Shown one piece after another: positions 27,514-43,478 of a stretch of 52,632 nt of DNA. The notes beneath the pieces were generated by a model that was not told the DNA's origin, made no database searches, and saw nothing but the letters and a program-made list of their open reading frames with translations. Positions within the stretch are counted from its first letter, which is position 1. Every line of letters starts with the position of its first letter. Source of the stretch: Ammonifex sp. (lineage in GTDB: Bacteria > Bacillota > Desulfotomaculia > Desulfotomaculales > Ammonificaceae). The position numbers and the translations under genes are program-made. The stretch covers positions 1 through 52,632 of the forward strand of contig QZIW01000073.1 of NCBI GenBank assembly GCA_003604985.1, given 5' to 3'.

Positions 27514-28287
27514 TTGATAGGTAAGACGGTAAGAGTACTTATTGCCGATGATAACAAGGAATTTTGTGAGCTTCTAAAGGATTTCTTAAACCAACAACCT
27601 GACTTTGAGCTAGTGGGTGTTGCTTATAACGGGCTTGAGGCCGTTGAGGTCATTGAGGAAACCCGGCCGGACGTGGTGATCCTGGACATAATCATGCCTC
27701 ACCTTGATGGCATAGGTGTACTGGAGAAGTTCGTGGGGAACACGCTCCCTTACCGCCCGAAATTCATCGTCCTCACAGCTTTGGGGCAGGAAGCCATTAC
27801 GCAAAGGGCTGTAGAGTTGGGAGCCGATTACTACGTGGTCAAACCGTTTAACTTCTCTGTACTGGCGAGCAGGATCCGGCAACTCGGCGACGGTTCGGCC
27901 ACAAAGACTCCTTTCGTTGTGCCCTCAAAACCGCGGAACCTGGACATGGCGGTTACGAATATTATCCATGAAATAGGAGTTCCGGCCCATATTAAAGGGT
28001 ACCATTACTTGCGTGACGCAATCTTAATGGTGGTTGATGAGATCAACTTGCTGGGCGGCATAACAAAGGAGCTTTATCCGATGATTGCCCAGAAATATAA
28101 CACAACTCCGAGCAGGGTGGAACGGGCCATCAGGCACGCGATCGAACTGGCATGGGACAGGGGTAATGTAGACGCCATCTCCAAGTTTTTTGGCTACACC
28201 GTTAACATGGCAAAGGGGAAACCCACAAATTCGGAGTTTATCGCGATGATTGCAGACAAACTACGCCTCGAAACGAGGGTGAGTTGA
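27514..28287 (+). CDS. spo0A: Sporulation master regulator Spo0A
   Basis: Spo0A is the phosphorelay response regulator that commits cells to sporulation. The 257 residues have a receiver domain with the acidic pocket (IADDNKEF), the phosphorylated Asp in [13 protein letters not shown], the Thr (FIVLTALG) and the Lys (YYVVKPFNF), then the Spo0A-specific effector domain with [18 protein letters not shown] and the recognition helix [18 protein letters not shown]. The start is a TTG behind AAAGGGGGGAAA. A strong terminator follows, so it ends its transcript. Confidence 0.98.
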
Positions 28288-40208: not shown

Positions 40209-40784
40209 TTACGCCTCCGGATCAGGAGGAGTGCACTGGGGCGGGAACAGCACCGGCGGACATACCAGCGGCGGCGCCGGTGAAACCTGTTCGCATTTTG
40301 CAGGCACGCAGAAGCCGAAGGTCGGCACCAACAGTTTAACCACGGCCCTGGACTGAATTATGATGCAAAGGTCAACACTGCAACATACCTGCTCTCCTAT
40401 CAATACGCACTGGCATGCTGATTCCACAACGGCGCAGTCCGTAAATGTCCCCTCGGGAGCACAGAGCACCACCGTCTTGGTAAAGTTAATTGTCTTTGTT
40501 AATTCACACAGCACGACACAATCGGGACTGATGATCGTTATTTTGATTGTTGTACTGACGGCGAAGGTTACGTTTGACCTTCCGGTTTCATCGGGGGCCG
40601 TACGGGAAATCTCGGTACAGAGCGGGGAATCGACAATCTTGCACGCGGCGATTGAACCATGCGGGAACGGGAAATGGGGACACCCGGTGACGTCAAAACA
40701 CTGCTCCCGCTCGTCGGCCTGGAAACAAAAATCGTAAACTTTAAAAGTTTCAATGCACACTACTTCGAATGCTTGGTCGCTCAT
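40209..40784 (-). CDS. Cysteine-rich protein, copy B (possible spore-surface protein)
   Basis: This 191-residue protein has 19 cysteines (10%), no signal peptide and no membrane span. Segments include EVVCIETFKVYDFCFQ, SRTAPDETGRSNVTFAVSTTIKITI, CQCVLIGEQVCCSVDLCIIIQSRAVVKLL and a proline/cysteine-rich end (LVCPPVLFPPQCTPPD). It is strongly similar to copy A, with every cysteine aligned. I do not recognise the family with certainty. Cys-rich, signal-less, beta-rich proteins in sporulators are often coat or exosporium components, which is my inference. The SD (AAGGGGGAAG) is good. A perfect dyad AACATAGTATGTT (40831-40843) and a CATAAATA sequence, similar to a mother-cell -10 element, lie upstream. 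Confidence 0.85.
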   Translation of the reverse strand: MSDQAFEVVCIETFKVYDFCFQADEREQCFDVTGCPHFPFPHGSIAACKIVDSPLCTEISRTAPDETGRSNVTFAVSTTIKITIISPDCVVLCELTKTINFTKTVVLCAPEGTFTDCAVVESACQCVLIGEQVCCSVDLCIIIQSRAVVKLLVPTFGFCVPAKCEQVSPAPPLVCPPVLFPPQCTPPDPEA

Positions 40785-41074
40785 CTATCTTCCCCCTTGG
40801 AATAAATTAATATTTATGGTTGTTTACGGTAACATAGTATGTTGCGCCAGGGTTGGTTGTGATAATTTACCGATTAAATCCGGCCTTTGGTAAAGGGGAG
40901 AAGCATTTCCTTTGAGAACCGCCGTTTCCAGGTGTCATGCTGATCAACGGAGATTTGTGCTGGAAAAGTGAAAAAGCCCATTCCGGGCAAAATGAGGCTA
41001 TCCATGGTTTTTAGTTAAAACGGTACATGGTAAATTTTTTTACCCGCACGGGGTAATGTTCTATCTTTTTTACC

Positions 41075-41278
41075 TCACCCTCCTGAAACAAAAGTGCAGT
41101 TTCTCTTCACCAAATTGTAGATGAGCATCATTGAGACTTCTGTTGGGTTATAGGTCACATACACCATCTCGCGGACTATTTTCACGTCCTTGATACCCCG
41201 TTCGTTTAGTAATTGCTCCGTTAATTCTTCCCTGTCTTTGATTCCCGTTGTAGTGATCGAAGTTGTGGAAAGATACAA
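41075..41278 (-). CDS. Small protein between the cysteine-rich paralogues
   Basis: The track ORF runs back into copy A, but the real start is probably the TTG at 41278, which has a near-perfect SD (GGAGGTGA, 5 nt away), giving 67 residues. The sequence LYLSTTSITTTGIKDREELTEQLLNERGIKDVKIVREMVYVTYNPTEV suggests a small alpha/beta fold, but I recognise no family; it has a single cysteine. It is in the same direction as the two paralogues and lies about 65 nt after copy A. Confidence 0.6.
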   Translation of the reverse strand: MYLSTTSITTTGIKDREELTEQLLNERGIKDVKIVREMVYVTYNPTEVSMMLIYNLVKRNCTFVSGG

Positions 41279-41293
41279 ATATTTCACCTCCGG

Positions 41294-41322
41294 AAAGGGG
41301 CCAGGGTTAACCCGGCCCCTTT
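41294..41322 (-). terminator. Hairpin between cysteine-rich copy A and the small ORF
   Basis: AAAGGGGCCGGG pairs with CCTGGCCCCTTT (12 bp with one G-T), 22 nt downstream of the copy A stop on the minus strand. The U tract is short (CCCCTTTCC) and an SD follows at once, so it may be a partial terminator or processing site setting relative expression. Confidence 0.5.
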
Positions 41323-41343
41323 GTATTGAGTTGACTAAGTAGC

Positions 41344-41973
41344 CTAATCTAGCGGCGTGCACTGAGGCGGGAACAGCACCGGCGGGCATACCAGCGGAGG
41401 CGCCGGTGAAACCTGTTCGCATTCCTTAGGCACGCAGAAGCCGAAGCTTGGGATTAATAGTTTTACGACCGCCCGGGACTGTATTACGATGCACAGGTCA
41501 ACGCTGCAGCAGACTTGTTCCCCGATGAGAACGCACTGACAGGCGGAATCCACTATGGCACAGTCGGTAAAGGTACCATCAGGGGCGCAGAGTACCACTG
41601 TTTTGGTAAAGTTAATGGTCTTTTTGAAAACGCAAAGGACTTCGCATTCAGGGCCGACTATTATAATCTTGATAGTCGTACTCACGGCGAAGGTTACATT
41701 CGACCTTCCTGTCTCATCTGGGGCAGTACGTGAAATCTCGGTACAGGTCGGGCTATCCACAATCTCGCAATTTGCGGTGGAACCGGCGGGGAAAGGGAAA
41801 CTCGGACAATTATCGGGCAAGTTGAAACACTGTTCGCGGCTCTCCGCCTGGAAACAAAAATCATAAACTTTAAAAGTCTCAATACAAATAACTTCAAAAT
41901 CTTTAAAATGCTTACCTTTTCCATCTTTCCCATCTTTCCAATCGTTCCACTCGATGCTCATATTGTCGCTCAT
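41344..41973 (-). CDS. Cysteine-rich protein, copy A (possible spore-surface protein)
   Basis: This 209-residue paralogue of the protein at 40209 also has 19 cysteines, all matching in order. It differs by an acidic/basic N-terminal extension (MSDNMSIEWNDWKDGKDGKGKHF). Near identity covers CTEISRTAPDETGRSNVTFA and CQCVLIGEQVCCSVDLC. The DNA of the 3' ends is also nearly identical, pointing to a recent duplication or gene conversion. The SD is AAGGAGG, 7 nt before the ATG. Upstream ACATAAATTGG again resembles a sigma-E/K -10 element. Function unknown; spore coat or exosporium is plausible. Confidence 0.85.
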   Translation of the reverse strand: MSDNMSIEWNDWKDGKDGKGKHFKDFEVICIETFKVYDFCFQAESREQCFNLPDNCPSFPFPAGSTANCEIVDSPTCTEISRTAPDETGRSNVTFAVSTTIKIIIVGPECEVLCVFKKTINFTKTVVLCAPDGTFTDCAIVDSACQCVLIGEQVCCSVDLCIVIQSRAVVKLLIPSFGFCVPKECEQVSPAPPLVCPPVLFPPQCTPLD

Positions 41974-42081
41974 AACGCAACCTCCTTGGAAATATATTTA
42001 TTTTTTGGCTCTGTTTGATACCAATTTATGTTGGTTTAACGCCGGTTGTGCCAAATTACAGGAAAAAATTGCAACCCGGTC

Positions 42082-42134: not shown

Positions 42135-42638
42135 GTGCTCTGGTCTACGCGTTCACCAGTCAAACCCGGGCAGACAAAAAGCGCCCATCAAAAAGGTCAG
42201 ACTGACAACAAAGCGACCAAAAATGAAGGGGAAGCAATACAGGAAAGAAAGAACCCGAAAATTCCACCCGGACACAGAGCCGCGGCTACAGTCCCCGCGG
42301 ATCCGCATGGTCAAAGAGTGACCGGTAGAGGGCCAAGACCAAGCGGAACGATTGCGTCCGAGGTAGTCAAACAACTTACGTCAGCGGCTGCAAGAGCTGT
42401 CGCGGCCCAAAGTGCGCCGCCGAAAACCGTATCGGTTGACATGCTGACAAGGAAAATTTTTCGAAAGGTCGGGAACGGCGTCTTCACTTTTAAACCTGGG
42501 GGCGCGGTTACCACAGCGGAATACCAGCCTGGTTGCAAGGCGGCAGACCTTGAACCGCTTCTTAAAGGGGCGGTGAAAGACGGTTTCATCAAAACTGCAA
42601 GCTTGCGCGAGGGGCTTCCGGTTTACATCTTTAAATGA
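42135..42638 (+). CDS. Basic hypothetical protein
   Basis: I do not recognise this gene. The GTG at 42135 (GGAGGTGA, 5 nt away) gives 167 residues. The first 75 are low in hydrophobics and rich in Lys/Pro/Gly/Gln (KPGQTKSAHQKGQTDNKATKN), probably disordered. A helical segment (SGTIASEVVKQLTSAAARAVAAQSA) and a more structured end (LEPLLKGAVKDGFIKTASLREGLPVYIFK) follow. No signal peptide or membrane span is seen. It has its own promoter and terminator, so it is a single-gene unit in a spore- and envelope-related island. Confidence 0.65.
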   Translation: MLWSTRSPVKPGQTKSAHQKGQTDNKATKNEGEAIQERKNPKIPPGHRAAATVPADPHGQRVTGRGPRPSGTIASEVVKQLTSAAARAVAAQSAPPKTVSVDMLTRKIFRKVGNGVFTFKPGGAVTTAEYQPGCKAADLEPLLKGAVKDGFIKTASLREGLPVYIFK

Positions 42639-42722: not shown

Positions 42723-43478
42723 TTAGTGGCCCAGGAACAATTGCGTCACATACACTCCGTACGGTGTGCCGACGACACCTATACCGATGGTATCGTGCCG
42801 CGGGTCCAGTAAATTGGCACGATGTCCTTCACTGTTCATAAGCAATTCATGTGCCCTCGCCACCGATCCGGCCTTGGCTATGTTTTCGGCGCCCATAACC
42901 CTGGCACTGATCCCGGCATTTCTCTCCATTTGAAGCGGTGTGCCATATGTTGGTGAGGTATGGCTGAAATAGTTGTTTTCGTACATGTCCTGACTTTTAA
43001 GCCGCGCCAGGTTGACCAGCCCCGAGTCCACAGCAAAGGCCCGAAGCCCGGCCTTAACCCTTTCTTGATTTACCAGGTCAAACATCTGCCTTTCACCCGC
43101 AGAAAGGTAATCAATATCGCCCGTTCCGCTTGGTGCGGGCGACGGTGCCGGTGTTGGTGCATGAACCGGTGCGGGTTTGGGTGTATAATAAGAGCGGTAC
43201 TGTGCCAGTTTGCTGTAATAATCCGAAGCACTGGTATAATAGGGCTTTGTTACCGTTCCGGTTCCGGCACTGCCACCCGTATTGGCTGGTGGCGGCGTGT
43301 AACTACCGGTTGGTGTGGTGCCTTGGCTCCCCCACGGGTACGCAATCCCGTATTGGCTCCACTGGGCACAATAGTCCGAAGGAGAGATGTAAGCCTGGGC
43401 GGTCCCAACTGGTACAATGGTTGCTACAAGAAACAGTAGCACGAAGAAGGTGGATAATATTCTGGCAATCCTTACCAT
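42723..43478 (-). CDS. Secreted CAP-domain protein (YkwD-like)
   Basis: This 251-residue protein has an N-terminal signal peptide (MVRIARILSTFFVLLFLVATIVPVGTAQA), a Tyr/Pro/Gly/Ser-rich linker with two related YxSxSDYxxxxxQY segments, and a C-terminal CAP/SCP domain (about 125-251): EGERQ-like opening AGERQMFDLVNQERVKAGL, KSQDMYENNYFSHTSPTYG, GAENIAKAGSVARAHELLMNSEGHRANLLD and IGIGVVGTPYGVYVTQLF. The two His and Glu of the CAP cavity are present. Bacterial CAP proteins of this kind are secreted and of uncertain role; some appear in spore coats. Confidence 0.9.
   Translation of the reverse strand: MVRIARILSTFFVLLFLVATIVPVGTAQAYISPSDYCAQWSQYGIAYPWGSQGTTPTGSYTPPPANTGGSAGTGTVTKPYYTSASDYYSKLAQYRSYYTPKPAPVHAPTPAPSPAPSGTGDIDYLSAGERQMFDLVNQERVKAGLRAFAVDSGLVNLARLKSQDMYENNYFSHTSPTYGTPLQMERNAGISARVMGAENIAKAGSVARAHELLMNSEGHRANLLDPRHDTIGIGVVGTPYGVYVTQLFLGH

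Follow-up and report, generated by a model that had tools for sequence, protein, structure and literature searches.

Two tandem cysteine-rich proteins of Ammonifex sp. as candidate sigma-K-controlled outer spore layer proteins related to BMQ_0737 of Bacillus megaterium

The spore protein BMQ_0737 of Bacillus megaterium is reportedly crucial to the integrity of the outermost spore layers, in the wording of the title of the paper which described it in 2014. Its position in these layers rests on GFP shell fitting together with immunolabelling (PMC4656864), and both the outer-layer location and the role in layer integrity are known for B. megaterium only. CsxA, ExsY and CotY, which are unrelated cysteine-rich proteins, self-assemble into two-dimensional lattices which have to be boiled in strong reductant before they dissolve (PMC7333573). 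The outer spore layers of anaerobes of the Desulfotomaculum/Pelotomaculum type are almost unstudied, and a literature search joining Desulfotomaculum, spore coat proteins and the exosporium gave a single paper, on comparative genomics. The locus described here provides a specific candidate for the main cross-linked layer of such spores, one which is tied to a Bacillus protein of known outer-layer role, and it yields a sigma-K promoter signature together with a set of partner genes.

The window (the whole 52,632 nucleotide contig of Ammonifex sp. that was analysed) carries two genes for cysteine-rich putative coat proteins on the minus strand, designated A (41344..41973; 209 amino acids, 19 cysteines), which is the first gene of the locus, and its tandem paralogue B (40209..40784; 191 amino acids, 19 cysteines). 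Both open reading frames were found to be preceded by ribosome-binding sites, and neither protein has an N-terminal hydrophobic stretch, in agreement with the first-pass annotation of this DNA, which had described two signal-less proteins sharing every cysteine while other positions had diverged. The proteins are 82% identical over 186 amino acids with all 19 cysteines in common; 8 of the 19 cysteine codons differ silently, and dN/dS is approximately 0.09. For 32 differences in 188 aligned positions the chance of sparing all 19 cysteines is P = 0.024; taken on its own, the sparing in this pair is thus suggestive, being mildly unlikely by chance and not compelling. The same annotation had regarded the 3' DNA as almost identical, which is correct for the final 65 or so bases of the coding sequences (41357..41421 in A and 40231..40295 in B, both on the minus strand, with 3 mismatches between them) but not elsewhere, where nucleotide identity is 65-85% and dS is approximately 1.3, indicating that the duplication is old rather than recent. 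This 65 nucleotide patch could have arisen by gene conversion over a short tract. As far as the genome has been assembled, A and B are its only copies of the coat gene.

When the pair and 29 members of the family were searched, no credible Pfam family was found for A, B or their relatives. The NCBIfam profile NF052457 (BMQ_0737 morphogenetic spore coat protein) matched A (E = 1.6e-14, positions 1-194 of the 199 in the profile) and, likewise over the whole length, B (E = 1.3e-11), with scores for the pair of 45.0 and 54.5 bits, which lie below the curated cut-off of 71 bits. None of 10 relatives tried against the same profile scored above the cut-off, several matching below it, and a search of 399 genomes gave matches above the cut-off in three genomes. 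A profile built from the A/B-family proteins found the same places (genomes G373, 1.5e-21; G297, 3.9e-12; G420, 1.1e-11). As two independent profiles agree, and do so in both directions, A and B are homologous to the NF052457 family. Six cysteines and the motifs KVYD, LCAPEGT, VKL, CxxxQ and FPPQC are common to A/B and the NF052457 genes above the cut-off. The differences are that A and B have 19 cysteines compared to 13-15 in single-domain NF052457 members (20 in one of 383 amino acids), that they have KVYDFCFQ (Phe/Cys) where NF052457 members have KVYDW, and that the gene occurs in tandem copies. Judged by sequence, A and B are a divergent, cysteine-richer clade of the BMQ_0737 family without a Pfam entry.

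A total of 84,980 prokaryote species were scanned for homologues of A and B, which gave 31 homologous open reading frames at 27 loci, all 27 in Bacillota and mostly in Desulfotomaculaceae/Peptococcaceae-type organisms and unclassified Bacillota metagenome-assembled genomes. Recurring motifs in these open reading frames are KVYDFCFQ, KTVxLCAPxGT, VKLLVPxxGFCVPxxC and LFPPQC. Among 26 homologues of less than 65% identity, cysteine positions were 84% conserved compared to 47% for other residues (permutation P ~1e-5), and selection thus preserves the cysteines of the A/B family. Cysteines 180, 185, 196 and 205, which lie within or close to the C-terminal arm of A, are invariant or nearly so in the alignment of homologues, and C110 of protein A is peculiar to the branch of the window itself. 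Certain cysteines are lost together in homologues (69 with 145, 147 with 156 and 56 with 114), as may be expected of partners, a signal which is only suggestive because the alignment rows are related. Lineage-specific tandem or multiple copies were seen on the tree in the genus of the window and in the genomes G034, FK2, FK3, Bu92 and MAS3, from which it follows that expansion of the family is recurrent; a further genome, G016, has three adjacent copies. No plasmid or phage record carrying the coat gene was found, and spread by mobile elements is therefore not supported.

Longer proteins bearing the coat domain were also observed. Two (L048:1486-3096, minus strand, and L049:340-1929, plus strand) combine a YVTN beta-propeller with a fused copy of the domain at the C-terminus (E values of 1e-11 to 1e-12), which suggests that the domain serves there as a spore-surface anchor. 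A SipL/SPOCS domain had been considered for the distant relatives of approximately 530 amino acids and was rejected, these being YVTN beta-propellers with a distant coat-domain copy. Two proteins of 337 amino acids (L045:1132-2142, minus strand, and L046:1429-2439, plus strand) have the coat domain followed by a beta-rich extension of approximately 110 residues, for which there were weak Ig-like Pfam hits only.

The distribution of the family was compared with that of the sporulation protein SpoIVA in the phylum sample of 399 genomes, of which 338 carry SpoIVA and 112 carry the coat family. SpoIVA was present in 110 of the 112 coat-family carriers (Fisher P = 1.4e-7), the two carriers without it being the window's own genome, which is 73% complete, and a 90%-complete genome whose congeners have SpoIVA. 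The family is patchy, being carried by about a third of sporulators and, in the phylum sample, by about one genome in four, and it is restricted to sporulators. The window itself contains a Spo0A gene (27514-28287, plus strand; 415 bits against TIGR02875), and sigma K was found above cut-off in the same genome, outside the window.

Outer coat genes are driven by sigma K, which acts late and in the mother cell. Sigma-K-type promoters were identified by motif match upstream of A (ACAACCGGCGTTAAACCAACATAAATTG, 42022..42049, minus strand) and, with the same internal spacing, upstream of B (ACAACCAACCCTGGCGCAACATACTATG, 40833..40860, minus strand). The pattern AC-N14-17-CATANNNT[AG], sought within 130 nucleotides upstream of the start, was present at 27 of 53 non-redundant family genes compared to 2 of 225 control genes from the same loci (P ~1e-20), most often at 50-58 nucleotides from the start codon. 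Across 64 upstream regions 37 matches were counted, where shuffled sequences would lead one to expect 1.6. A sigma-E reading of these promoters was rejected, since the sigma-E pattern was not enriched in the 64 regions (1 observed, 1 expected). The sigma-K motif is mostly missing in GC-rich or distant members of the family, and it was found upstream of three of the four above-cut-off NF052457 genes examined.

The first-pass annotation had suggested that these proteins assemble through disulfides or metal, with a spore-surface layer as one possible setting and a redox or metal scaffold as another. Its spore reading stands after the phyletic check, homologues not being common in non-spore-formers (27 of 27 loci in Bacillota; SpoIVA in all but two carriers), and the spore-surface interpretation is well supported, by the restriction to sporulators, the relation to a coat-family profile and the sigma-K-type promoters. 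It is very improbable that A and B act in the cytoplasm of vegetative cells, as redox or scaffold proteins: they are indeed signal-less, and their locus is flanked by housekeeping genes (aminotransferases, YicC and coaBC), but the confinement of the family to SpoIVA-bearing genomes speaks against this, and the sigma-K-type promoters argue against expression in vegetative cells only.

The gene order around A and B recurs across genera and families, and comprises a CAP/YkwD-like secreted protein, a divergent low-complexity protein, the coat gene or genes and a small HMA-fold protein. In the window, the secreted YkwD-type protein with a CAP domain (42723..43478, minus strand) matched PF00188 (E = 4.8e-16) and, at 141 bits against a cut-off of 171, TIGR02909 spore_YkwD (E = 1.4e-41); a gene of this type lies near the coat gene in approximately 23 loci. 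The divergent low-complexity protein (42135..42638, plus strand) has no Pfam match and has conserved C-terminal motifs (F.EV.PGIF.FK ... DGLPVYTFK); its gene and A border one intergenic region, and it occupies the same position in approximately 15 loci. Directly downstream of A is a gene with a TTG start (41075..41278, minus strand) encoding the HMA-fold protein of 67 amino acids, which starts 65 nucleotides past the stop codon of A and is therefore probably co-transcribed with it. B would be transcribed from its own promoter, apart from this A-HMA unit; a weak terminator-like hairpin lies between the unit and the B promoter (40976..40988, minus strand), in a scan which performed no better than chance. 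The HMA-like, CAP and divergent genes are linked to A/B and are absent around the four above-cut-off NF052457 loci. A and B extend a known kind of coat protein: their branch of the BMQ_0737 family is widespread, is richer in cysteines and has a conserved locus of its own.

The HMA-fold neighbour bears on whether the cysteines bind metal, in which case A and B would make up a spore layer that stores or buffers metal, with the 67 amino acid protein as its chaperone. An HMA-like family adjoins the coat gene in approximately 16 loci and PF00403 was above cut-off in one member (L067); the window's protein is predicted to fold as beta-alpha-beta-beta-alpha (AlphaFold2 pLDDT 90), resembling the HMA domains of CsoZ, MerP, CopZ-type proteins and ATP7A/B (Foldseek TM 0.68-0.79). 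The coat proteins, for their part, have 19 cysteines, four of which (145, 147, 155 and 156) belong to a CxC...CC hairpin and tend to vanish together. However, the CxxC metal-binding motif of CopZ, MerP and CsoZ is absent from every aligned HMA-like member, that of the window included, so that carriage of metal by the 67 amino acid protein is unlikely. In addition, the CC pair is missing in the above-cut-off BMQ_0737-family members, there is no Pfam relation to known metallothionein or ferredoxin families, and in the AlphaFold2 model of A the cysteines are scattered along the chain, flexible arms included. A metal-binding layer is considered unlikely, and disulfide bonding is favoured over metal as the probable role of the cysteines.

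The AlphaFold2 model of A has an all-beta core (residues 28-175, pLDDT ~95) of seven predicted strands, two of them more than 20 residues long, with a flexible arm on either side. A sequence search of the PDB with the coat proteins returned no relative and only a chance Bcl-2 hit, and Foldseek gave no significant solved match; hits of the coat model to phage-neck, SecB and mitoribosome structures were rejected, with TM-scores of approximately 0.25 or less. As the fold has no solved relative, lattice contacts cannot be read from a template. Beta-rich, cysteine-bearing chains with flexible arms at both ends could also be subunits of a spore appendage, an ENA-like pilus in place of a flat coat layer, and appendages on endospores occur widely among Firmicutes (PMC11952670). 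We regard this as improbable, given that the Pfam family Enas (PF13157) matched 0 of 29 members and that neither a sequence relative nor a significant structural match emerged from the PDB. PF13157 also gave 0 matches in the window genome and in 119 further genomes of the phylum, but as the controls were likewise without a match, this search says nothing about absence from the genomes.

The explanation we favour, and consider likely, is that A and B are sigma-K-controlled structural proteins of the outer coat or exosporium which are cross-linked by disulfides and have been tandem-duplicated repeatedly. Late in sporulation, sigma K would switch on A and B in the mother cell, where the signal-less proteins would fold in the cytoplasm as long-stranded beta domains and become packed round the forespore. 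Disulfides between subunits would then lock them into a reduction-sensitive layer, through cysteines located in part in the flexible arms at the two termini (the C-terminal GFCVP-C...CPP-LFPPQC segment); 19 being an odd number, at least one cysteine per monomer is left outside any internal disulfide. The tandem paralogues could co-assemble in a mixed lattice or form layers in succession, and the HMA-fold protein may act as a protein-binding helper or coat partner and not as a metal carrier. We infer a spore location, a lattice and disulfide cross-linking for A and B from these features taken together. A broader and more tentative proposal, which we consider rather doubtful as a whole, is that of a large unnamed sigma-K coat superfamily, its beta fold not in the PDB, which in many anaerobic spore-formers would build a lattice locked by disulfides, with a metal-free HMA-fold partner from the adjacent gene as assembly factor and with the domain employed again to anchor proteins at the spore surface, for instance where it follows a YVTN beta-propeller.

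No CotY/CotZ-type Pfam match was obtained for A, B or the 29 members. The mother cell produces CsxA of Clostridium sporogenes as well as ExsY/CotY of Bacillus, which are rich in cysteine and lie at the spore surface, as is proposed here for A and B; csxA, like the A/B locus, is accompanied by a conserved partner gene in divergent orientation (PMC7333573). By analogy, A and B might form lattices on the same principle as CsxA, ExsY and CotY, and the idea that unrelated cysteine-rich building blocks serve in many spore-formers can now be tested with one small recombinant protein.
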